Shown one piece after another: positions 15,737-27,479 of a DNA stretch of 64,000 nt. Below the pieces are notes generated by a model, which was given only the letters and a program-made list of their open reading frames with translations, was not told the origin of the DNA and did no database searches. The DNA lies in assembly GCF_019679455.1 (NCBI RefSeq), contig NZ_JAIEZQ010000002.1, positions 992,001-1,056,000 on the forward strand, read 5' to 3'. A program made the translations under genes and the position numbers. Position 1 is the stretch's first letter, and every line of letters begins with the position of its first letter. The DNA is from Nocardioides jiangsuensis (GTDB lineage Bacteria; Actinomycetota; Actinomycetes; Propionibacteriales; Nocardioidaceae).

Positions 15737-16660
15737 ATGAACCGAACCACGATGCGTGCCCTGACTCTCGCCGGCGCCACCGCGCTGGCCCTCGGCACCA
15801 CGCTCGCGACCGCCGTCGCCATGCCGACCGTGGAGCGCGGCACCGTCTGCGTCGCGCCCTCGGGCGCCGCCGCCCGCGGTGACGGGGCCCAGCACCAGGG
15901 CACCGACCACCGGGACGTCTCCGCCACCGAGCAGCGGGCGATCGAGCGGCAGACCGCGGCGGCCCTGGCCCGCGACGGCGGCAAGCTGGCCGACGGCGCC
16001 ACGGTCCCCGTCTACGTGCACGTGATGCGCGACGACACCGGCCAGCTCGGCGACGTGACCGACCGGCAGATCCGCGACCAGATCGCGGTCCTCAACGAGA
16101 CTTTCTCCGGCGGCGAGTCGTCGACGGCCTCCGACAGCGGCTTCCGTTTCGAGCTCGCCGACGTGCAGCGCTACGACAACACGACCTGGCACTACGACCG
16201 GGCCAGCGCGAAGTACCGCTCCGAGACCCGGCGTGGTGGCGCGGACGCGCTGAACATGTGGCTCGTCGACTTCGACTACCTCGGCATCGCGACCTTCCCG
16301 TGGGACTACAGCAAGCAGGGCCGCATCGACGGGATCCGGGTGCACTACGACTCGCTGCCGGGTGGCGGCATCGCCAACTACAACCTGGGGGAGACCGCCA
16401 CGCACGAGGCCGGGCACTGGTTCGGGCTCTACCACACGTTCCAGGGCGGGTGCACCGAGACCAACGACGAGGTGAGCGACACCCCGGCGCAGAGCGCGCC
16501 CACCCGGGGCTGCCCGGAGGGCTCGGACACCTGTGACCTTCCGGGGCTGGACCCGATCCACAACTACATGGACTACAGCTACGACTCCTGCTACACGGAG
16601 TTCACCGGAGGCCAGTCCACGCGGATGGCCGAGATGTGGACGGCGTACCGGGCCTCCTGA
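15737..16660 (+). CDS. Secreted zinc metalloprotease, M43 (pappalysin-type)
   Basis: Exported protease of 307 residues. A signal peptide covers residues 1 to about 30 (ALTLAGATALALGTTLATAVA, AxA-type end near residue 30). The extended zinc motif HEAGHWFGLYH begins at H223 (HExxHxxGxxH), and the Met-turn is in NYMDYSYDSC. Several cysteines (GGCTE, TRGCPEG, DTCDLPG, DSCYTE) match the disulfides of the family. ATG 15737 follows AGGGGAG. The next gene is a close paralogue in the same orientation, so this is a tandem duplication. Likely role: extracellular protein digestion. Confidence 0.9.
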   Translation: MNRTTMRALTLAGATALALGTTLATAVAMPTVERGTVCVAPSGAAARGDGAQHQGTDHRDVSATEQRAIERQTAAALARDGGKLADGATVPVYVHVMRDDTGQLGDVTDRQIRDQIAVLNETFSGGESSTASDSGFRFELADVQRYDNTTWHYDRASAKYRSETRRGGADALNMWLVDFDYLGIATFPWDYSKQGRIDGIRVHYDSLPGGGIANYNLGETATHEAGHWFGLYHTFQGGCTETNDEVSDTPAQSAPTRGCPEGSDTCDLPGLDPIHNYMDYSYDSCYTEFTGGQSTRMAEMWTAYRAS

Positions 16661-16679
16661 CCCGCGCGCGACGTCTTCC

Positions 16680-16729
16680 CGGTCGTCCGTACCAGCGAGC
16701 GCTATGAGCCGCGCTGGTACGGACGACCG
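16680..16729. terminator. 17-bp perfect inverted repeat between the two M43 genes
   Basis: CGGTCGTCCGTACCAGC at 16680-16696 pairs perfectly with 16713-16729 around a 16-nt loop. It lies 20 nt after the first M43 stop and can act as an intrinsic terminator without a T run, but the long stem and large loop could also be a protein-binding palindrome for the downstream gene. Confidence 0.5.
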
Positions 16730-16878
16730 CGTGCGTCCCGGGGTGCTGCATGCCTCGGCATCTGCCAAAACCTGCAAAAAGTTCTCCTGCCGGGATGTTC
16801 CTTCTGCGGCATTTGTGCCACAAGATCGCGCTACGGGACACAACCCGGCGTTCCGCGGACAGAAGAGAGCGAACCTCC

Positions 16879-17811
16879 ATGACTCGTGCACGTCTTCGTA
16901 CCCTCGCCGTGGCCGGAGCCATGGCCTTCGTCCTCGGCGGCGTGGTCGCCCCCGCCCAGGCGATGCCCTCCCTCGAGCGCGGCTGCTTCGAGCCGGCGGA
17001 GTACGCCGGGGCCCGCGTCGCCGGTGACGACCAGCGGGGCGCCGACCACCGGGACATCTCCGCGGCGCAGCAGCGCGCCATCGAGAAGCGCACCAGGAAC
17101 GTGCTCGCCGCCAAGGGCACCACCCCGGCGGAGGCGGGCGCCGAGTTCAGCGGCGCGAGCGTCCCGGTCTACGTGCACGTGATGCGTGACAAGGCCGGCA
17201 ACGGCGACGTGACCGACACCCAGATCAGCCAGCAGATCGCGGTGCTGAACAAGACGTTCGGCGGCCAGGAGTCGTCGTCCGCGTCCAACACCGGGTTCAC
17301 CTTCACGCTCGCCGGCGTCGACCGGTTCAACAACGACCAGTGGCACGCCGACCGGAAGAGCACGCAGTACCGCGCGGCCACACGCCAGGGCGGGGCCGAC
17401 GCGCTGAACATCTGGCTCGTCGACTTCAGCTACCTGGGCATCGCGACGTTCCCCTGGGACTACGCGCGCAACCCCTCGATCGACGGCATCCGGGTGCACT
17501 ACGCCTCGCTGCCCGGCGGCAGCATCGCCAACTACAACCTCGGCGAGACCGCGACCCACGAGGCGGGCCACTGGTTTGGGCTCTACCACACGTTCCAGGG
17601 CGGCTGCACCTCCACGAACGACGAGGTCTCCGACACCCCGGCGCAGGGCAGCTCGACCAACGGCTGCCCCGAGGGCCGCGACTCGTGCTCGCTGCCCGGG
17701 CTCGACCCGATCCACAACTACATGGACTACAGCTACGACTCCTGCTACACCGAGTTCACCGGTGGCCAGACGTCGCGGATGGGCACCATGTGGACGGCCT
17801 ACCGGGGCTGA
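16879..17811 (+). CDS. Secreted zinc metalloprotease, M43 (second tandem copy)
   Basis: Paralogue of the preceding gene, 310 residues. Signal peptide at residues 1-30 (LAVAGAMAFVLGGVVAPAQA). The zinc motif HEAGHWFGLYH starts at H227 and the Met-turn YMDYSYDSCYTEF is identical to the first copy, as is most of the catalytic domain; the copies differ mainly in the signal peptide and the pro-region (residues 30-90). ATG 16879 is preceded by GAGCGAACC, a weak ribosome site. The upstream 16740-16870 segment is unusually A/T-rich for this genome and likely holds the promoter. A strong hairpin at 17849-17876 ends the unit. Confidence 0.9.
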   Translation: MTRARLRTLAVAGAMAFVLGGVVAPAQAMPSLERGCFEPAEYAGARVAGDDQRGADHRDISAAQQRAIEKRTRNVLAAKGTTPAEAGAEFSGASVPVYVHVMRDKAGNGDVTDTQISQQIAVLNKTFGGQESSSASNTGFTFTLAGVDRFNNDQWHADRKSTQYRAATRQGGADALNIWLVDFSYLGIATFPWDYARNPSIDGIRVHYASLPGGSIANYNLGETATHEAGHWFGLYHTFQGGCTSTNDEVSDTPAQGSSTNGCPEGRDSCSLPGLDPIHNYMDYSYDSCYTEFTGGQTSRMGTMWTAYRG

Positions 17812-17848
17812 CCGGAGGAGCGGCATCGTCGACGGGGTGACCGTCGTG

Positions 17849-17876
17849 AGGGGTCCCGGGCGAGCCCGGGGCCCCT
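17849..17876. terminator. Bidirectional intrinsic terminator
   Basis: A 12-bp stem (17849-17860 with 17865-17876, one G-U pair) with a CGAG loop followed by TCT lies between the plus-strand M43 gene and the minus-strand ferritin-like gene. Confidence 0.75.
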
Positions 17877-17905
17877 TCTGCGTGCCCGGTCCGCGTGCTC
17901 GGGAG

Positions 17906-18331
17906 TCAGAGCTCGGCGATGCCGGGGAACGCGTCGGGCTTCGCGCCGAAGGACAGCGACCGCACGGCCGCGTCCTCGAGCGCCTCGAGCGCCCACTGGC
18001 GGTTCGCCCCGGACGTGCTGCCCACCATGTCGGCGTACACCGCGGAGCACCGCTGCTCGAGCAGCAGGGCCGCCGCGGTGAGCTCCTCGGTGCTGGTGGC
18101 GGGCGTGGGCAGGTCGTAGCTGACCTCGGAGGCGACCGGCTCGGCCTCGGCGGTGCGCAGCATCGAGACGAGCTGGTCGCGTCGTCCGCGGTGCAGGGTG
18201 TACGCCGTGCGGACCCGGCTCCACAGGTCCGGCTCGGTCGAGACCGAGACCCGTCCGCCGACGACGCCGTACACGTAGACCGCGGCGTGCTCGCCGGCCA
18301 GGGCCGCCTGCATCGCCTCCACGGGGGTCAC
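17906..18331 (-). CDS. Ferritin-like domain protein (DUF4439 type)
   Basis: Cytoplasmic or peripheral helical protein of 141 residues resembling the DUF4439 ferritin-like domain, with the pattern AALAGEHAAVYVYGVVGGR in the first helix and a second long helix around LLLEQRCSAVYADMVG. The Glu residues in the helices could bind metal, but a full di-iron set is not obvious. Its GTG start overlaps the TGA stop of the lipoprotein gene upstream (GTGA), so the two are translated together. Function is not established; metal storage or oxidative stress is only suggested by the fold. Confidence 0.65.
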   Translation of the reverse strand: MTPVEAMQAALAGEHAAVYVYGVVGGRVSVSTEPDLWSRVRTAYTLHRGRRDQLVSMLRTAEAEPVASEVSYDLPTPATSTEELTAAALLLEQRCSAVYADMVGSTSGANRQWALEALEDAAVRSLSFGAKPDAFPGIAEL

Positions 18332-18927
18332 CGTCGTCCACCGCCCCGGCTCGGGTCCACCGCACCGAGGACCACCACGTGCTGCGCGGCGGCCGCGGCC
18401 ATGCTTCCCAGCAGCCGGGCGAACGCGCCGCTCTCCGCGACGAAGGCGTGCTGCTTGGTCGCGTCGGTGAGCTGCTGCTCCGAGGCCACGAGGTCGGCCA
18501 GCGCCTTCGCCGGGTCACGGGGCACCGCGCGCGACGACCGGCGCGACGCCGCGGCCGGGGAGGCGGACGCGGACGGTACGGCGGTCGCGCCGCCGGCCAG
18601 TCCCGGGGGGACCGCCTCGCCGAGCAGCTTCACGTGCGCCTCGTGGGTGCCGACCAGCGGCGCGAGGTCACGGCGCAGCGCGGGGTGCGCGTCCTGCGTG
18701 GCGACGACGAGGTCGAGGGCGGCCCGCTGCCCGGCGAGCGCCTCGGAGGCCACCGCGACGTCCGGGTCGACGTCGGGCCCGCCGCCACGGTGTCGGCCGC
18801 CCCGGCGGGCGGAGTCGTGCTCCGACGTACACCCGGAGAGGCCGGCCACCAGGCCGGCCGCGGTCCCGGCGAGCACCGCACGGCGGGTCGGACGGGCCCG
18901 ACGGGGAAGGGCGGAGCGGGCGGACAC
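18328..18927 (-). CDS. Putative lipoprotein with ferritin-like helical domain
   Basis: 199 residues beginning with a twin-arginine-like and hydrophobic stretch (RPTRRAVLAGTAAGLVAGL) that ends in the lipobox LSGC, so the protein is probably lipidated at that Cys and held on the outer face of the membrane. The remainder is Ala-rich and helical, with a HEAHVKLLGE-like helix resembling ferritin-like folds. GTG 18927 is preferred because TAGAGT lies 7 nt upstream; the open frame runs far upstream but is antisense to rimP and nusA. Overlaps the DUF4439 gene by 4 bases; the pair may form one complex. Confidence 0.65.
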   Translation of the reverse strand: MSARSALPRRARPTRRAVLAGTAAGLVAGLSGCTSEHDSARRGGRHRGGGPDVDPDVAVASEALAGQRAALDLVVATQDAHPALRRDLAPLVGTHEAHVKLLGEAVPPGLAGGATAVPSASASPAAASRRSSRAVPRDPAKALADLVASEQQLTDATKQHAFVAESGAFARLLGSMAAAAAQHVVVLGAVDPSRGGGRR

Positions 18928-18934
18928 GGCGCCG

Positions 18935-18940
18935 ACTCTA
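18935..18940 (-). promoter_or_regulatory. -10 box of the lipoprotein gene (leaderless)
   Basis: On the minus strand TAGAGT is followed by 7 nt and GTG 18927. Confidence 0.5.
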
Positions 18941-18957
18941 GCGTGCCCGACGTCCGC

Positions 18958-18963
18958 TAAGGT
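18958..18963 (+). promoter_or_regulatory. -10 box of the rimP-nusA operon
   Basis: TAAGGT would start transcription near 18970, giving a 75-nt leader before rimP. It lies 18 bp from the divergent lipoprotein promoter. Confidence 0.45.
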
Positions 18964-19044
18964 TGCTGCCACGGACGCACCGGTGGTCTCCGCCGTACGG
19001 CGTCCGTACGCACGCCCGACAACAGCACAGCAAGGAGCTTGCCC

Positions 19045-19512
19045 GTGAGCAACGATGAGACCCGGGACCGACTTGCAGAGGTGTTGACCGTGCCGCTCGC
19101 CGCGGCCGGGCTGGACGTCGAGGCCATCGAGATCACCCCCGCCGGCAAGCGCCGCCTGCTGCGCGTCGCCGTGGACAAGGACGGCGGGGTGACCATGGAC
19201 GACATCGCCGAGGCCACCAAGGAGGTCTCCCGCGTGCTCGACGGGTCCGACGTGATGGGCGAGCAGCCCTACACCCTCGAGGTCACCTCGCCCGGCACCG
19301 ACCGGCCGCTGACCCTGCCCCGCCACTGGCGCCGCAACGAGGGCCGCCTGGTGAAGGTGGCGGCCCGCGACGGCGCCGGCGTGACCGGGCGGATCCTGCG
19401 CAGCGACGACCAGAGTGCCACGCTCGACGTGGACGGCCAGGAGCAGACCGTGGCGTACGCCGACGTGACCAAGGCCCGCATCCAGATCGAGTTCAACAAG
19501 AAGGAGGGCTGA
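19045..19512 (+). CDS. rimP: Ribosome maturation factor RimP
   Basis: Needed for maturation of the 30S subunit. 155 residues with the N-terminal alpha/beta domain (LLRVAVDKDGGVTMDDI) and a C-terminal SH3-like domain (TGRILRSDDQSATLDVDG). GTG 19045 is chosen over TTG 19039 because AAGGAG at 19032-19037 is spaced 7 nt from it. First gene of the rimP-nusA-ylxR-infB translation block; nusA follows after 3 nt. Confidence 0.93.
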   Translation: MSNDETRDRLAEVLTVPLAAAGLDVEAIEITPAGKRRLLRVAVDKDGGVTMDDIAEATKEVSRVLDGSDVMGEQPYTLEVTSPGTDRPLTLPRHWRRNEGRLVKVAARDGAGVTGRILRSDDQSATLDVDGQEQTVAYADVTKARIQIEFNKKEG

Positions 19513-19515
19513 GGC

Positions 19516-20517
19516 ATGGACATCGACATGACGATCCTGCGCTCGCTCGAGCGTGAGAAGGAGATCTCCTTCGACATCCTGGTCGAGGCCATCGAGCAGG
19601 CCCTGCTGATCGCCTACCAGCGCACCCCGGGCGCGCAGCCGAAGGCGCGCGTCGAGCTCGACCGGAAGAACGGCCACGTGACCGTGTTCGCCGCCGAGAC
19701 CGACGACGAGGGCAACACGGTCGCCGAGTTCGACGACACCCCGGACGGCTTCGGCCGGATCGCGGCGACCACCGCGAAGCAGATCATCCTGCAGCGGCTG
19801 CGCGACGCCGAGGACGACCTCAAGTTCGGGGAGTTCTCCGGCAAGGAGGGCGACATCGTCTCCGGGATCATCCAGCAGGGCCGCGACCCGCAGGACGTGA
19901 TGGTCGACCTCGGACGCCTCGAGGCGCTGCTGCCGCAGGCCGAGCGGGTGCCGGGGGAGCGCTACGACCACGGCACCCGGATCAAGTGCCTGGTGGTGAG
20001 CGTCCGCAAGGGAATGCGCGGGCCGCAGGTGATGCTGTCCCGGTCGCACCCCAACCTGGTCAAGAAGCTCTTCGCCCTCGAGGTCCCGGAGATCGCCGAC
20101 GGCACCGTCGAGATCTGCGCGATCGCCCGCGAGGCGGGGCACCGCACCAAGATCGCGGTCCGCTCGACGGTCCCCGGCGTCAACGCCAAGGGGTCGTGCA
20201 TCGGGCCGATGGGGCAGCGCGTCCGCAACATCATGCACGAGCTGCACGGGGAGAAGATCGACATCGTCGACTGGGCCGAGGACCCCGCCGAGCTGGTCGC
20301 GCACGCGCTCTCCCCGGCCCGGGTCTCCAGCGTGGAGATCGTCGACCTGGCCGCCCGCTCGGCCCGGGTGATCGTGCCCGACTACCAGCTGTCTCTCGCC
20401 ATCGGCAAGGAGGGCCAGAACGCCCGCCTCGCGGCCCGGCTGACCGGCTGGCGGATCGACATCCGTTCCGACGAGGCAGCGGCCGAGCAGGCCCGGGCCG
20501 CCTCGCCGGACGCCTGA
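19516..20517 (+). CDS. nusA: Transcription termination/antitermination factor NusA
   Basis: Binds RNA polymerase and nascent RNA, modulating pausing, termination and antitermination. 333 residues, the short actinobacterial form without C-terminal acidic repeats: N-terminal polymerase-binding domain (1-125), S1 domain (about 135-200), then two KH domains ([11 protein letters not shown] and [23 protein letters not shown]). ATG 19516 begins 3 nt after rimP. It precedes ylxR, the usual order. Confidence 0.96.
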
Positions 20518-20549
20518 CAGCGCGTTTCGGTTCTCAGGGCCGCAGGCGC

Positions 20550-20555
20550 TAGACT
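20550..20555 (+). promoter_or_regulatory. -10 box of the ylxR-infB unit
   Basis: TAGACT is followed by 8 nt and the GTG of ylxR at 20564, so ylxR-infB can be transcribed independently of nusA, probably without a leader. Confidence 0.45.
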
Positions 20556-20563
20556 GGTTCACG

Positions 20564-20869
20564 GTGGTTCGCGACAACGGCGCTGACGCATGCGCACATG
20601 TTCCTGTGCGTACCTGTGTCGGATGCCGCACGCGGGCCCCGAAGCAAGAACTGCTGCGCGTGGTCGCCGGCGGTTCGGACGACGGCCCGGCCGTCGTACC
20701 CGATCCGCGGGGCACCGCACCCGGCCGTGGGGCGCACCTGCACCCCACGCTCGAGTGCTTCGACCTCGCGACTCGCCGCCGAGCTTTCGTCAGGGCCCTC
20801 CGGGCCAGGACCGGGCTTGCCGGTGCGCCGCTGGAGGAGTACCTCCGGGGGCTGGAGCAGCAGACATGA
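20564..20869 (+). CDS. ylxR: YlxR family (DUF448) RNA-binding protein
   Basis: 101 residues. The signature VRTCVGCR lies at residues 15-22, followed by a basic C-terminal part (TRRRAFVRALRAR) suited to RNA or tRNA binding; the family is linked to nusA-infB loci and to RNase P or transcription control in other bacteria (family knowledge). GTG 20564 fits the -10 box 8 nt upstream; GTG 20606, directly before the signature, is an alternative. Its TGA stop overlaps the ATG of a 17-codon ORF, starting an unusual chain of micro-ORFs leading to infB. Confidence 0.85.
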   Translation: MVRDNGADACAHVPVRTCVGCRTRAPKQELLRVVAGGSDDGPAVVPDPRGTAPGRGAHLHPTLECFDLATRRRAFVRALRARTGLAGAPLEEYLRGLEQQT

Positions 20870-20919
20870 CCGTGATTGACCGACAGAAGATGGAGCAGCA
20901 GCTCATGAGCACTCGATGA
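20866..20919 (+). CDS. Micro-ORF 1 (17 codons) between ylxR and infB
   Basis: Starts at ATG 20866, overlapping the ylxR stop as ATGA, and ends MSTR-stop. An internal ATG at 20905 begins the same last four codons. It is the first link of three overlapping micro-ORFs. Whether it is translated is inference. Confidence 0.45.
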   Translation: MTVIDRQKMEQQLMSTR

Positions 20920-20933
20920 GTACTTCGCGATGA
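20916..20933 (+). CDS. Micro-ORF 2 (MSTSR)
   Basis: ATG 20916 overlaps the stop of micro-ORF 1 as ATGA; five codons then TGA, itself part of the next ATGA. Its N-terminus MST repeats that at the end of micro-ORF 1. Confidence 0.4.
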
Positions 20934-20950
20934 GCATGCACACCAGCTAA
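20930..20950 (+). CDS. Micro-ORF 3 (MSMHTS)
   Basis: ATG 20930 overlaps the stop of micro-ORF 2 as ATGA; six codons then TAA at 20948-20950, directly before the hairpin in front of infB. Confidence 0.4.
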
Positions 20951-20951
20951 C

Positions 20952-20979
20952 GGTCCGGCCATACCCAAGGGCTCGGACC
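20952..20979 (+). promoter_or_regulatory. Hairpin before the infB ribosome binding site
   Basis: GGTCCG (20952-20957) pairs with CGGACC (20974-20979); the infB Shine-Dalgarno GAAGGAG starts 2 nt later at 20981. A ribosome finishing micro-ORF 3 would reach the left arm of this stem. Confidence 0.5.
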
Positions 20980-20991
20980 AGAAGGAGAAGC

Positions 20992-23868
<2,877 letters not shown>

Positions 23869-23893
23869 CCCGCACGTGGCCGACCTGCCGGCC

Positions 23894-23929
23894 GGGGGAC
23901 ACCGAGGCAACCAGCCTCGCTCGTCCCCC
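23894..23929 (+). repeat. Stacked stem-loop after infB
   Basis: GGGGGAC (23894-23900) pairs with GTCCCCC (23923-23929); inside, CGAGGC (23903-23908) pairs with GCCTCG (23914-23919) around AACCA. A two-helix structure between infB and the main terminator. Confidence 0.5.
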
Positions 23930-23959
23930 GCTCGGCGGCCAGGCCCACCATCCCTCGGC

Positions 23960-23995
23960 GCCCCCGCCCGTCCGGTCAGCCGGACGGGCGGGGGC
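23960..23995. terminator. Strong intrinsic terminator between infB and rbfA
   Basis: A perfect 16-bp stem (23960-23975 with 23980-23995) around TCAG. It suggests rbfA-truB-ribF have their own promoter or are reached only by partial readthrough. Confidence 0.75.
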
Positions 23996-24044
23996 ACGCC
24001 CGGGGGTCATGCTGAACCTCTGAACCAACCCAGGAGAACCACTC

Positions 24045-24524
24045 ATGAGCTCGCCCCGCGTGCGCAAGGTCGCCGACCGGATCCAGGTCATCGTGGCCGA
24101 GATGCTCGAGCGCCGGATCAAGGACCCGCGTCTGGGGTTCGTGACCGTCACCGACGTCCGGGTCTCCGGTGACACCCAGAACGCGACGATCTTCTACACC
24201 GTCCTGGGCGAGGTCGACGAGCTCGCGGGGACTGCCGTCGCGCTGGAGTCGGCGAAGGGGATCCTGCGCTCCGAGGTGGGCAAGCAGCTCGGGATGCGGC
24301 ACGTCCCGACGCTGGAGTTCATCCACGACGCCCTGCCCGACACCGCCCGCCACCTCGACGAGCTGCTGGCCAAGGCCAGGGAGTCCGACGCCCAGGTCGC
24401 CGCCGCGGCGGCCGGCGCGCAGTACGCCGGTGAGGCGGATCCCTACAAGAAGCCCCACGACGAGGACGCCGAGGACGACACCGTCGACGGCGACGAGGCC
24501 GCGGACCCCACCACCGACGCGTGA
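24045..24524 (+). CDS. rbfA: 30S ribosome-binding factor RbfA
   Basis: Assists late 16S rRNA processing and cold adaptation of the 30S subunit. 159 residues; the KH-like core ([17 protein letters not shown], then [15 protein letters not shown] and [12 protein letters not shown]) covers residues 4-110, followed by an acidic, probably disordered tail of about 40 residues. ATG 24045 follows CCAGGAGAA. Its last bases overlap truB as GTGA. Confidence 0.94.
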
Positions 24525-25420
24525 GCACGTCGGGCACTGCCGGCGCGGCGGGCCGGGCCGGCCTGGTCGTGGTCGACAAGGCCGGCGGGATGACGTCGCA
24601 CGACGTGGTCGCGCGGCTGCGCCGGCTGGCCGGCACCCGCAAGGTCGGCCACGCGGGCACCCTCGACCCGATGGCGACCGGGGTCCTCCTGGTCGGCGTG
24701 AACCGGGCCACCCGGCTGCTCGGCCACCTGATGCTCACCGAGAAGGCGTACGACGCGGTCGTCCGGCTCGGGGTCTCCACCACCACCGACGACGCCGAGG
24801 GCGAGGTGCTGGCCACCACCGACGCCTCCCACCTCACCGACGCGACGGTGCGCGAGGCGCTGGCCGCCTTCGTCGGCGACATCGAGCAGGTGCCCTCCTC
24901 GGTATCCGCGATCAAGGTCGACGGCCGGCGCGCCTACGCGAGGGTCCGCGCCGGCGAGAAGGTCGAGCTGGCCGCGCGGCCGGTCACCGTCCACGCGCTC
25001 GACATGGGCGCGGTTACCAGAGACGCCGGCACGGTCGACGTCGCGATCTCGGTCCGCTGCTCCAGCGGCACCTACATCCGCGCGTTGGCCCGCGACCTGG
25101 GCGCCGCCCTCGGCGTCGGCGGGCACCTCACCGTGCTCCGCCGTACCGCCGTCGGCCCCTTCGGCCTCGCCGACGCCGTGACCCTCGACCAGCTGGCCGC
25201 GGAGTTCACGATGGTCGCGATCGACGACGTGGCACGCCGCTGCTTCCCGACCCGCACCGTCGACGAGCAGGGTGCGGCGGACGTCGCCGTCGGCCGCAAG
25301 CTCGAGCTGGACCTGGGTGCGCCGGGACCGGTCGCGGTCCTCGACGGCGAGGGCCGGTTCCTCGCCCTGTACGAGCAGCGCGGCCCGGTGGCCGCCGCGG
25401 TCGCCGTCTTCACCTCCTGA
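24521..25420 (+). CDS. truB: tRNA pseudouridine(55) synthase TruB
   Basis: Isomerises U55 in the T-loop of most tRNAs. 299 residues with the catalytic Asp in [15 protein letters not shown], the substrate motif [10 protein letters not shown], and [21 protein letters not shown]-terminal PUA-like domain follows. GTG 24521 overlaps the rbfA stop by 4 bases, indicating coupling. Often followed by ribF, as here. Confidence 0.95.
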
Positions 25421-25509
25421 GCGCCCCGAGGTCTCCCGGGCGCGGCGCCCGCCCGTGTGGCAGGCTTTTGCCGGACTCTCCCGACTCCCAGGACAGGAGC
25501 ACCACGGAC

Positions 25510-26463
25510 GTGCGGATCTGGCGCTCGATCGACGACGTTCCCGCCGACCTCGGTCGGACGGTCGTGACGATCGGCAACTTCGACGGGGTACACCTCGGTC
25601 ACCAGCACGTGGTGCGGCGCGCCCGCGAGGTGGCCCGCGACCGCGGCGTGGAGCACCTGGTCGCGGTCACCTTCGACCCGCACCCGATCGCGGTGCTGCG
25701 CCCCGAGCACGCGCCGCCCACCCTGACCACCGTGGAGACGCGCGCGGTGCTCCTCGCGGACGCGGGGGTGGACGACCTGCTCGTGGTGCCGTTCACCCGC
25801 GACATCGCGGCCTGGACGCCCGAGCGGTTCATCGAGGAGATCCTGGTCGACGCGCTCCACGCGACGGCGGTGGTGGTCGGCGCCAACTTCCGGTTCGGCC
25901 ACCGCGCCGCGGGCGACGTCAGCACGCTGCGCGAGGCGGGGAAGAGCCACGACTTCGTGACCGAGGGCATCGCGCTCGACGGCGGTCCGCAGGTCTGGTC
26001 GTCGACGTACGTCCGGAACTGCCTCGCGGCCGGTGACGTCGAGGGCGCCGCGGAGGCGCTGGGACGTCCCTTCACGGTGCGCGGCGAGGTCGTCAAGGGC
26101 GACCAGCGCGGCCGCGAGCTCGGCTACCCGACCGCGAACGTGCCGACCACCGGGATGCACGCCGCCCCCGCCGACGGGGTGTACGCCGGCTGGCTGCGCC
26201 GCCTCGAGGGCGACCCGACCCCGCTACCCGCCGCGATCAGTGTCGGCACCAACCCGACCTTCGACGGCGACCGCGAGCGGCGGGTGGAGTCCTACGTCCT
26301 CGACCGCGACGACCTCGAGCTGTACGGCGTCCCGGTGGAGGTGGCCTTCGTGGCGCGGCTGCGGGGCATGGTGCGCTTCGACTCCATCGACGACCTGGTC
26401 GCCACCATGGCCGACGACGTGGCCCGTGCCCGCGTGGCGCTCGGCCGGGAAGACCAGACATGA
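25510..26463 (+). CDS. ribF: Bifunctional riboflavin kinase / FAD synthetase
   Basis: Makes FMN from riboflavin and then FAD. 317 residues: an N-terminal nucleotidyltransferase domain with GNFDGVHLGHQ and the SSTYVR segment, and a C-terminal flavokinase domain with KGDQRGRELGYPTAN and GTNPTF. GTG 25510 follows AGGACAGGAG; upstream open frame belongs to the truB antisense/other frame and is not coding. Its stop overlaps the next gene as ATGA. No FMN riboswitch was found upstream. Confidence 0.95.
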   Translation: MRIWRSIDDVPADLGRTVVTIGNFDGVHLGHQHVVRRAREVARDRGVEHLVAVTFDPHPIAVLRPEHAPPTLTTVETRAVLLADAGVDDLLVVPFTRDIAAWTPERFIEEILVDALHATAVVVGANFRFGHRAAGDVSTLREAGKSHDFVTEGIALDGGPQVWSSTYVRNCLAAGDVEGAAEALGRPFTVRGEVVKGDQRGRELGYPTANVPTTGMHAAPADGVYAGWLRRLEGDPTPLPAAISVGTNPTFDGDRERRVESYVLDRDDLELYGVPVEVAFVARLRGMVRFDSIDDLVATMADDVARARVALGREDQT

Positions 26464-27479
26464 GCGGGCAGCACGGCGTCCGCGGCTGGCGGGGCGGTCG
26501 GGCCGCCAGCCCGCAGACCATCGAGGCCGCCGAGCGGTGGTTCGTCCGGCACGGGCTGCCGTACTTCGTCGACTCCGAGCGCGAGGAGGTCCGCCGCGGC
26601 CTGAAGCCGAGACGGCTGGGCGCGGTGGCGACCACCGCGGTGGTGGCGGGGCTCGCCGTCGGCGTGGTGCTCGGCTGGCTCACCGTCGACGTCTCCCTCG
26701 GGATCAGCGCCGCGCTCGCCGTCGTGGGCGCGGTCGCGGCGTTCTACGCCTTCACGACCCTGCGGCTGGGGGCCATGGCCCGCTGGGCGGTGGCCCGGAC
26801 CCTGCGCAGCCTCGGGCTGATGTTCCCGCTGGTCACCCGGGCGCTGCCGCTGCTGCTGCTGTTCGTCACGTTCCTGTTCATCAACGCCGAGGTCTGGCAG
26901 GTCTCCTCGACCCTCGACGGCGGCGTCATGTGGCTGGCGGTGATGCTCTTCGCCGGCATGGCGGTGGGCTTCCTGCTGGTCCGGCTTCCCGAGGAGCTCG
27001 ACAAGGTCGACGACGAGGTCGAGGGCGGCCGGCTGGTCGCCGCATGCAAGGGCACCCCGCTGGAGGAGGCGGCCCGACAGCTCGCCGAGTCCGGGGAGCA
27101 CGTGCACCAGGACGCGACCGTGAGGGGCTTCCAGAAGGCCAACCTGATCCTGGTGCTCCTGGTCGCGCAGGTGGTGCAGGTGCTCCTGCTCTCGGTGGCG
27201 GTGTTCCTGTTCTTCATCGTCTTCGGCGCGGTGGCGATGAAGGAGGGCGTGGTCGAGTCCTGGATCGGCGCGGAGTCGCACCCGCTGGGCATCTCGACGC
27301 TGACCGTGGAGCTGGTCCAGGTGTCGGTCTTCCTGGCCGCGTTCTCCGGGCTCTACTTCACTGTGTACGCGGTGACCGACGAGACCTACCGCGGGCAGTT
27401 CTTCACCTCGATCACCGACGAGCTCGAGCGGGCGGTCGGCGCGCGCACGGTCTACCACGCGCTGAAGTCGCAGGCCTGA
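26460..27479 (+). CDS. Conserved integral membrane protein, unknown function
   Basis: I do not recognise a named family. 339 residues: a soluble N-terminus (1-55), two adjacent hydrophobic segments (about 60-105), one or two more near 130-180, a soluble middle loop rich in Glu (EELDKVDDEVEGG, about 180-230), and two further membrane segments (235-310) before a short C-terminal tail. ATG 26460 overlaps the ribF stop as ATGA, so it is the last gene of the rbfA-truB-ribF unit. A strong terminator follows at 27512-27545. Confidence 0.75.
   Translation: MSGQHGVRGWRGGRAASPQTIEAAERWFVRHGLPYFVDSEREEVRRGLKPRRLGAVATTAVVAGLAVGVVLGWLTVDVSLGISAALAVVGAVAAFYAFTTLRLGAMARWAVARTLRSLGLMFPLVTRALPLLLLFVTFLFINAEVWQVSSTLDGGVMWLAVMLFAGMAVGFLLVRLPEELDKVDDEVEGGRLVAACKGTPLEEAARQLAESGEHVHQDATVRGFQKANLILVLLVAQVVQVLLLSVAVFLFFIVFGAVAMKEGVVESWIGAESHPLGISTLTVELVQVSVFLAAFSGLYFTVYAVTDETYRGQFFTSITDELERAVGARTVYHALKSQA

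Follow-up and report, generated by a model that had tools for sequence, protein, structure and literature searches.

A conserved chain of overlapping micro-ORFs between ylxR and infB in Actinomycetes, a candidate translational attenuator of initiation factor IF2

Introduction

Bacterial translational attenuators of the ermC type use a leader peptide to control hairpins at a ribosome-binding site. In yeast GCN4 and mammalian ATF4, a series of upstream ORFs (uORFs) ties downstream translation to re-initiation capacity and hence to an initiation factor. Re-initiation is otherwise usually seen as a by-product of gene packing and not as a sensor. Among initiation factors, IF3 is autoregulated through the AUU start codon of infC. 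To our knowledge, how bacteria set the level of IF2 is poorly understood.

In termination-reinitiation coupling, stop and start overlap as ATGA or TGATG, and one ribosome ends one frame and restarts on the next, as described in the available parts of two sources (PMC6728339, PMC12548453). IF3 is reported to control sigR in Streptomyces (PMC5472188, in part). The attenuator in the rimP leader of the rimP-nusA-infB operon is, in the available part of its description, a transcription terminator at the operon 5' end (PMC2965389). The locus analyzed here belongs to the same operon, but it is internal, between ylxR and infB, and appears to be translational.

Results

The ylxR-infB region of the window

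The window is the whole stretch of DNA analyzed, 64,000 nt of a 3.97-Mb genome, and the operon order around the site is rimP-nusA-ylxR-infB-rbfA-truB. The original prediction named ATG codons at 20866, 20916 and 20930, a hairpin and the infB ribosome site, and all of these are present at those positions. The features are as follows.

20564..20869, + strand: ylxR, ORF for a YlxR/RnpM-like protein (PF04296, E 5.4e-21)
20866..20919, + strand: 17-codon connecting ORF, bridging the ylxR stop to the MSTR frame; ends in MSTR, TGA 20917-20919
20905..20919, + strand: relay micro-ORF 1, MSTR and stop; conserved first member, in-frame ATG at 20905; 4 codons in most loci
20916..20933, + strand: relay micro-ORF 2, MSTSR and stop; usually 5 codons; its start overlaps stop 1 by 4 nt
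20930..20950, + strand: relay micro-ORF 3, MSMHTS and stop; usually 6 codons; TAA 20948-20950
20952..20979, + strand: hairpin H1, presumed open state; 20952-20960 pairs with 20970-20972 and 20974-20979
20969..21010, + strand: alternative hairpin H2, presumed closed state; 20969-20979 (GGGCUCGGACC) pairs with 21000-21010
20980..20994, + strand: infB Shine-Dalgarno (SD) sequence (AGAAGGAGAA, 20980-20989) and GTG start (20992)
20992..23868, + strand: infB, translation initiation factor IF2, 958 codons, presumed regulated gene (TIGR00487, 777 bits, cut-off 424)
21013..21030, + strand: H3, hairpin within infB codons 8-13 (GAGCUC...GAGCUC); covariation keeps the pairing

The ylxR product scored 57 bits against the RnpM model, below the cut-off of 80. 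The TGA of ylxR (20867-20869) overlaps the ATG at 20866, and the 17-codon ORF that begins there had been taken for the first link of the chain. It proved to be a local feature, seen in the window genome alone among the loci read; elsewhere ylxR is connected to the relay directly, via other ORFs, or not at all. As judged from the comparison of loci, the conserved core of the chain is MSTR>MSTSR>MSMHTS, with 4, 5 and 6 codons. In the window, GGAG stands a few nucleotides upstream of micro-ORF 1, and the stop of micro-ORF 3 is separated by 1 nt from H1, the arms of which are GGTCCG (20952-20957) and CGGACC (20974-20979). The 3' strand of H2 is formed by infB codons 3-7, and the infB SD and start are enclosed by this hairpin.

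A known riboswitch or other Rfam element was rejected, as the Rfam covariance models gave no match at the relay. The only matches in 16000-27000 lay elsewhere (17821-17884 and 22758-22815), far under their gathering scores.

Conservation of the chain in the class

The class sample comprised 120 loci, 30 from one search and 90 from genomes bearing YlxR, which was found in 277 of 296 class genomes. Thirty of these 90 were the best matches, and 60 were picked for family spread among the matches listed. The infB start was located in 118 loci (35 families), the two others being L061 and L115. Chains were defined by stop/start overlaps of -4 or -1 nt. At least three overlapping ORFs of 3-16 codons, ending upstream of infB, were found in 117/118 loci (35 families), a conservation far wider than Streptomyces, for which a similar string had been mentioned in the original prediction. 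That string is real; the named Streptomyces record L151 has ATGAGCACTCGATGAGTACGCGATGAGTACGCCCATGAAGTAG before infB. The single exception, L013, has two links, and its third start reads CTG by eye. Inspected by eye, L061 carries the relay METR>MSSQR>MSA, whereas L115 contains a pair of overlapping ORFs preceded at 2 nt by a third frame.

We also analyzed titled records (the best 80 of 556), allowing ORFs of up to 25 codons. The infB start was located in 76 loci and not in the other 4, and at least three links were present in 76/76. These loci include Nocardioides, Streptomyces, Kitasatospora, Jiangella, Nocardia, Mycolicibacter, Plantactinospora, Micromonospora, Agromyces, Microbacterium, Actinopolymorpha and several metagenome-assembled genomes. 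The genomes of family f25 are small (1.0-2.2 Mb); YlxR was found in 9/15 of them, with three links in 8/9 and two in 1/9. The codon numbers of the last three ORFs were 4-5-6 in 55/118 loci and 4-4-6 in 19/118. The exact 11/14 ATGA spacing of the window had a match in 68/118 class genomes, some of the listed matches plainly not being the infB relay, and the reversed-pattern control had 2 matches. By these comparisons the chain is real and conserved, and the relay is near-universal in the Actinomycetes sampled, among them streptomycetes, mycobacteria, micromonosporas and relatives.

The number of links varies between lineages; it is mostly three, with extra links in family f3. This family (L026, L027, L029 and L030; genomes of 7.6-8.5 Mb), which we assume is perhaps Kribbella, has one or two of them (MSVER or MSVQK, MMDTQR, MSAMR). 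Each is a whole frame-preserving unit, which makes the family a natural experiment on link number. In the f6 loci L061-L063 and in L153 (Arthrobacter), inspection by eye gave a longer last relay ORF of about 23 codons. In f6 it starts 2 nt past the preceding stop without overlap, and in Arthrobacter it ends in RSKK right before the hairpin (both by eye).

Chance controls and other classes of the phylum

The same algorithm was run on dinucleotide-shuffled versions of these leaders, with the chain allowed anywhere in the stretch. A chain of at least three appeared in 1.3% of shuffles against 117/118 real leaders; links past the last three may be partly due to chance. In the 3.97-Mb genome, the pattern ATGA-N(7-10)-ATGA-N(7-10)-ATGA occurred 3 times and its reversed control 0 times. 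The other two occurrences are in-frame ATG codons in 12-nt steps with no linked ORFs; apart from such in-frame ATG triplets, the pattern is unique to the ylxR-infB site in the window genome.

We fetched 30 loci from other classes of the phylum and located the infB start in 13. A chain of at least two before infB was found in 0/13 of these. The surroundings of the ylxR stop held at most one ORF in 27/28 of the loci from other classes (2/30 were not placed). In L143 of another class, a chance chain of three consists of the ylxR end, a frame that spans the infB start and another within infB.

Junctions, frames and peptides

When the ylxR-infB regions were compared and their junctions and frames counted, as had been proposed with the original prediction, the internal junctions of the last three ORFs (n=235) were ATGA in 217, GTGA in 13, TGATG in 4 and TAATG in 1. 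Peptides, start codons (ATG or GTG), overlap type and link number varied among loci, and the frames persisted. In family f21, ACG stands in place of the first ATG, and the frame is opened upstream by a GTG that follows AAGGAG (MTLTSVR/MTLTSAR). The first ATG is likewise ACG in L095, where an upstream ATG opens the same frame (MATSTR). Because junctions and starts change while frames persist, selection appears to act on the frames, keeping stops, starts and frames as re-initiation would need.

The 50 distinct 4-5-6 sequences encode 20 different peptides in ORF 1, 28 in ORF 2 and 44 in ORF 3. A function of the peptides was rejected, since the peptides vary and the frames stay. Given the same variation, no stall signal by a leader peptide or its codons was evident in these 50 sequences. 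The repeated MS-T start, at first held unlikely to be chance, is mostly a by-product of the overlap: with ATGA, the second codon begins with A and the last codon ends in A, which forces S, T or N as the second residue and R, Q, P or K as the last.

The last stop of the relay was TAA or TAG in 100/118 loci and TGA in 18/118, and the ylxR stop was TGA in 73/117. The bias at the last stop could mean that RF1 and not RF2 terminates at the switch, or could merely reflect avoidance of ATGA/GTGA there.

Entry into the relay

An unbroken path of overlapping ORFs, TTG starts allowed, led from the ylxR stop to the relay in 63/117 loci, and none was found in 54/117. Among the 63 joined loci, the ylxR stop is itself the relay junction in 19, and the path runs via one ORF in 39 and via two in 5. 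Ribosomes can therefore come from ylxR where the two are joined, and in the 54 unjoined loci the relay must be entered independently. A strict SD string was present before the first micro-ORF in 54/118 loci.

In 37/118 loci (families f4, f9, f12, f15, f16, f18, f19, f20, f27 and f43), the first relay ATG is preceded at about 20 nt by a GAAGCRGGTCGA-like block, and the distance from the end of the block to the ATG is nearly fixed at 5-7 nt. Judged from its sequence, this block may be an atypical ribosome-binding site, and base pairing between its TCGAG and the CTCGA of junction 1 is conceivable.

Comparative support for the hairpins

The last stop lies a median of 1 nt from H1 (range 0-7) and 42 nt from infB (range 21-65; 116 loci), the latter without L062 and L063, in which the distance to infB is 116 and 110 nt. 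In the window, the folding energy at 37 C was -16.3 kcal/mol for H1 (z -2.99) and -21.9 kcal/mol for H2 (z -2.98). At 30 C, the z of H1 had a mean of -3.07 and was under -1 in 111/115 loci; that of the H2 region, with the leader core alone shuffled, had a mean of -2.04 and was under -1 in 91/115. H1 and H2 are predicted to be mutually exclusive, the 3' arm of H1 being common to both. The minimum free energy fold of the window is H1 and the ensemble centroid is H2 (37 C). The median difference between the H1 and H2 energies was -0.8 kcal/mol (quartiles -4.0 and +1.8), and the two were within 5 kcal/mol in 89/115 loci.

In the leader, the base before YGGRCC covaries with the synonymous third position of an infB Arg codon (C-G, T-A, G-C, A-T). 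After the 30/118 loci without the motif were dropped, the two bases were Watson-Crick in 76/88 loci. With families treated as independent, 24/35 family-distinct combinations were Watson-Crick against 14.8 expected (p about 1e-4). In a swap test, the leader arm paired better with the infB start of its own locus than with starts from other families in 98/115 loci and in 32/33 families, f34 being the exception.

Alignment A1 holds 32 loci of 25 families, hand-picked from 45 representatives, with the 13 that had differing arms or infB starts omitted. For H2, 94.9% of the cells were paired and 12 were doubly changed, values that 0/500 shuffles reached. For H1, 94.7% of the cells were paired and 6 doubly changed, which were reached by 7 and 3 of 500 shuffles. 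Two of the five measures on A1, two-sided changes and further pair types, were not clearly above shuffles for either hairpin (for H2, 406/500 and 23/500 shuffles reached them). The covariation of H1 is, in this alignment, weaker than that of H2.

In most families, the predicted alternative partner of the H1 3' arm, with which it can pair, is infB codons 3-7 (H2). Inspection of the loci without the covariation motif revealed a different hairpin reaching the SD itself in f34, f40 and f36, and in several f7 loci CCUC faces the SD GAGG (by inspection). From the type of relay, we assign f34 to Microbacteriaceae and f7 to the mycobacteria.

H3 is a conserved RNA structure inside the infB coding start. 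A synonymous Glu position (GAG/GAA) covaries with the first position of a Leu/Phe codon (CTC/TTC). The 6-bp helix was paired in 88/89 loci with the motif, which 29/118 lack, and in 36/37 family-distinct combinations against 31.2 expected (p 0.0003).

Folding with a ribosome on the leader

The folding sets comprised 114-116 loci, L062, L063 and tails outside 30-66 nt being dropped. Unpaired probabilities and the mean z of H1 and H2 were calculated at 30 C, and energies and opening costs at 37 C. When H1 was blocked, the mean unpaired probability at the infB SD and start was not lowered (0.555 to 0.608; lower in 22/115 loci), and simple SD occlusion was rejected on this ground. The probability at the SD is not lowered because H2 leaves the SD in a loop. 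Since the 3' strand of H2 occupies about +9 to +19, a better measure is the cost of opening the ribosome footprint from -12 to +16.

With the 5' side of H1 covered, the mean cost of opening infB from -12 to +16 increased from 9.4 to 17.6 kcal/mol. The cost rose in 106/115 loci and in 32/33 families, and the mean change in the shuffled-tail control was -0.17. The mean family change was 8.4 kcal/mol for -12..+16, 6.1 for -14..+14 and 3.3 for -12..+10. The predicted closure rests on the whole-footprint opening cost, and its size varies with the footprint chosen. The effect was small or absent in families f15, f19, f34, f37 and f40, and at least five pairs between the leader and the infB start were lacking in the blocked state in 6/115 loci.

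When the relay sequence was included (114 loci), the family mean was 11.9 kcal/mol without a ribosome, 11.5 with a ribosome at stop 1, 11.3 at stop 2 and 16.8 at the last stop. The cost at the last stop was higher in 30/33 families, by >2 kcal/mol in 26. For the window, the corresponding costs were 8.0, 7.9, 8.2 and 19.1, and in a scan of the ribosome front edge the last-stop position (-32) lay on the plateau of the curve. By calculation, only ribosomes that have finished every link would close infB, because the last stop raises the opening cost and stops 1 and 2 do not.

Discussion

We favor, with somewhat more confidence than doubt, a translational attenuator whose sensor is the stop-start micro-ORF relay; completion of the relay would close infB and place IF2 under negative feedback. 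The chain, its frames, the position of the last stop beside H1 and the support for H1 and H2 come from comparative sequence analysis. A ribosome would arrive from ylxR or via an entry site directly ahead of the relay, translate micro-ORF 1 (4 codons), terminate at ATGA and re-initiate on micro-ORF 2 (5 codons), and then re-initiate on micro-ORF 3 (6 codons) to terminate right before H1. While the relay end is empty, H1 would keep the shared 3' arm and the infB start would be open. A ribosome at the last stop would cover the 5' arm of H1, leaving the 3' arm to pair with infB codons 3-7 as H2. The formation of H2 would close infB; in some families, by inspection, the pairing partner would be the SD itself. 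The closing position would be reached by ribosomes that succeed at all re-initiations and by no others. The repressive sign and its restriction to the last stop are calculated; from the whole we infer translation in vivo, switching, IF2 as the signal and the negative feedback.

At high IF2, the relay would be completed and infB translated less, and at low IF2, ribosomes would drop off the relay and infB would be translated more. Each link would add an IF2-dependent step, and the chain would sharpen the response. We propose negative feedback on IF2 because of the relay anatomy and because re-initiation depends on IF2 in E. coli. There, in the available part of PMC2268962, re-initiation with a mutant initiator tRNA increased about 2.5-fold when IF2 was overproduced, and the authors suggest that IF2 may be required for re-initiation to a greater extent than for de novo initiation. 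The same source reports that IF3 overproduction lowers re-initiation and that formylation matters for it in E. coli. By analogy with this E. coli and mutant-tRNA evidence, IF2 would be the signal, the sign of the loop being less certain since infB translation itself also needs IF2.

The chief rival to the attenuator reading is that the coupling junctions carry ribosomes from ylxR to infB, with IF2 tied to the upstream operon and the hairpin bridging the gap. We regard this as unlikely. The overlapping ORFs that join the ylxR stop to the relay in 63/117 loci would also suit such simple coupling, and the available part of PMC12548453 places the peak of coupling at -4 to +3 nt, with some studies reporting it at +40 nt and far beyond. 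However, the relay is unjoined to ylxR in 54/117 loci, infB has its own SD, and the last junction does not overlap infB; a median gap of 42 nt follows, with a stable hairpin directly after the stop. According to the same part of PMC12548453, coupling is in most studies weak or lost once the distance exceeds 30-40 nt, and weak coupling correlates with structure past the stop. The co-adapted H2 would also be left unexplained. The restarting ribosome of the original prediction is, on these grounds, probably not delivered to infB. Its idea of ribosome-flow control of IF2 is still the best-fitting reading, but with the opposite sign, since comparative folding has completion of the relay close infB. 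A quite improbable variant, to which we give slightly less weight than to delivery, keeps the same switch and lets it respond to initiator-tRNA formylation, IF3, release factor 2, ribosome recycling or a ribosome-targeting drug. Only the switch, not the limiting factor, is set by the anatomy. The lower frequency of TGA at the last stop (18/118) than at ylxR stops (73/117) would suit such signals, as would the effects of IF3 and formylation in E. coli (PMC2268962, in part). Against this, internal TGA stops are forced by ATGA/GTGA, many ylxR stops are TGA through the relay overlap, and infB directly downstream makes IF2 the simplest signal.

Two further readings have little to recommend them. 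The micro-ORFs might simply tie up ribosomes and keep infB output at a constant, lower level with no sensing. The 6/115 loci that keep the relay and lack at least five leader/infB-start pairs in the blocked state, and the five families with the relay and a small or absent closing effect, would fit this, but the near-equal exclusive hairpins and the effect specific to the last stop look like a switch, and we think a fixed damping highly improbable. Hardly credible to us is that the repeated GATGAG is bound by an RNA-binding protein such as YlxR, the frames being incidental. The motif does repeat at 11-14 nt spacing, and ylxR, of a family called RNA-binding in its model names, is directly upstream. 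Yet it is the frames that are kept and not the motif, as seen at GTGA and TAATG/TGATG junctions and where ACG is accompanied by upstream in-frame starts, and the relay had no Rfam match.

Extending the attenuator reading, we tentatively propose, with less confidence than in the attenuator itself, that Actinomycetes gauge their own IF2 supply by an n-step re-initiation relay whose switch closes infB, with a steepness that grows with the number of links, as a bacterial counterpart of GCN4. If this is true, the relay is a natural assay of re-initiation efficiency in vivo, consecutive micro-ORFs can serve as a multi-step counter in bacteria, and IF2 homeostasis becomes directly testable, the relay being easily mutated. 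The analysis also points to micro-ORFs below the size that gene finders detect, located before a core gene in a medically and industrially important class.

In the open-access literature, we found no description of a micro-ORF chain before infB, and the available part of a ribosome-profiling study of M. tuberculosis (PMC9094748) does not mention one. The locus shows translational-attenuator traits, namely a conserved leader ORF start, frame and stop and, by prediction, two exclusive hairpins. As in ermC-type attenuators, where the ribosome position on a short leader ORF picks one of two exclusive hairpins, the same choice is proposed here. Unlike them, the infB relay would need at least three ORFs completed by re-initiation, its peptides are not conserved, no stall codon is evident, and the ribosome is predicted to close the start and not to open it. 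The relay shares -4/-1 nt stop/start overlaps with termination-reinitiation coupling, whereas it joins at least three micro-ORFs, for which no product is evident, and stops before reaching infB instead of linking a pair of genes. As with infC and sigR, the activity of an initiation factor would be read by an unusual initiation event on the mRNA; those two read start-codon discrimination at a single site, and the infB relay would read repeated re-initiation. With GCN4 and ATF4, it has in common several uORFs before the target, and by analogy to E. coli its output may likewise depend on an initiation factor. It differs in being bacterial, in using stop-start overlaps without scanning, in its predicted read-out by an RNA hairpin and in its proposed target, the gene of the initiation factor itself. 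What seems new is that three features are combined across the class: a stop-start relay of several links, a switch tuned to the final stop and an initiation-factor gene as the target.
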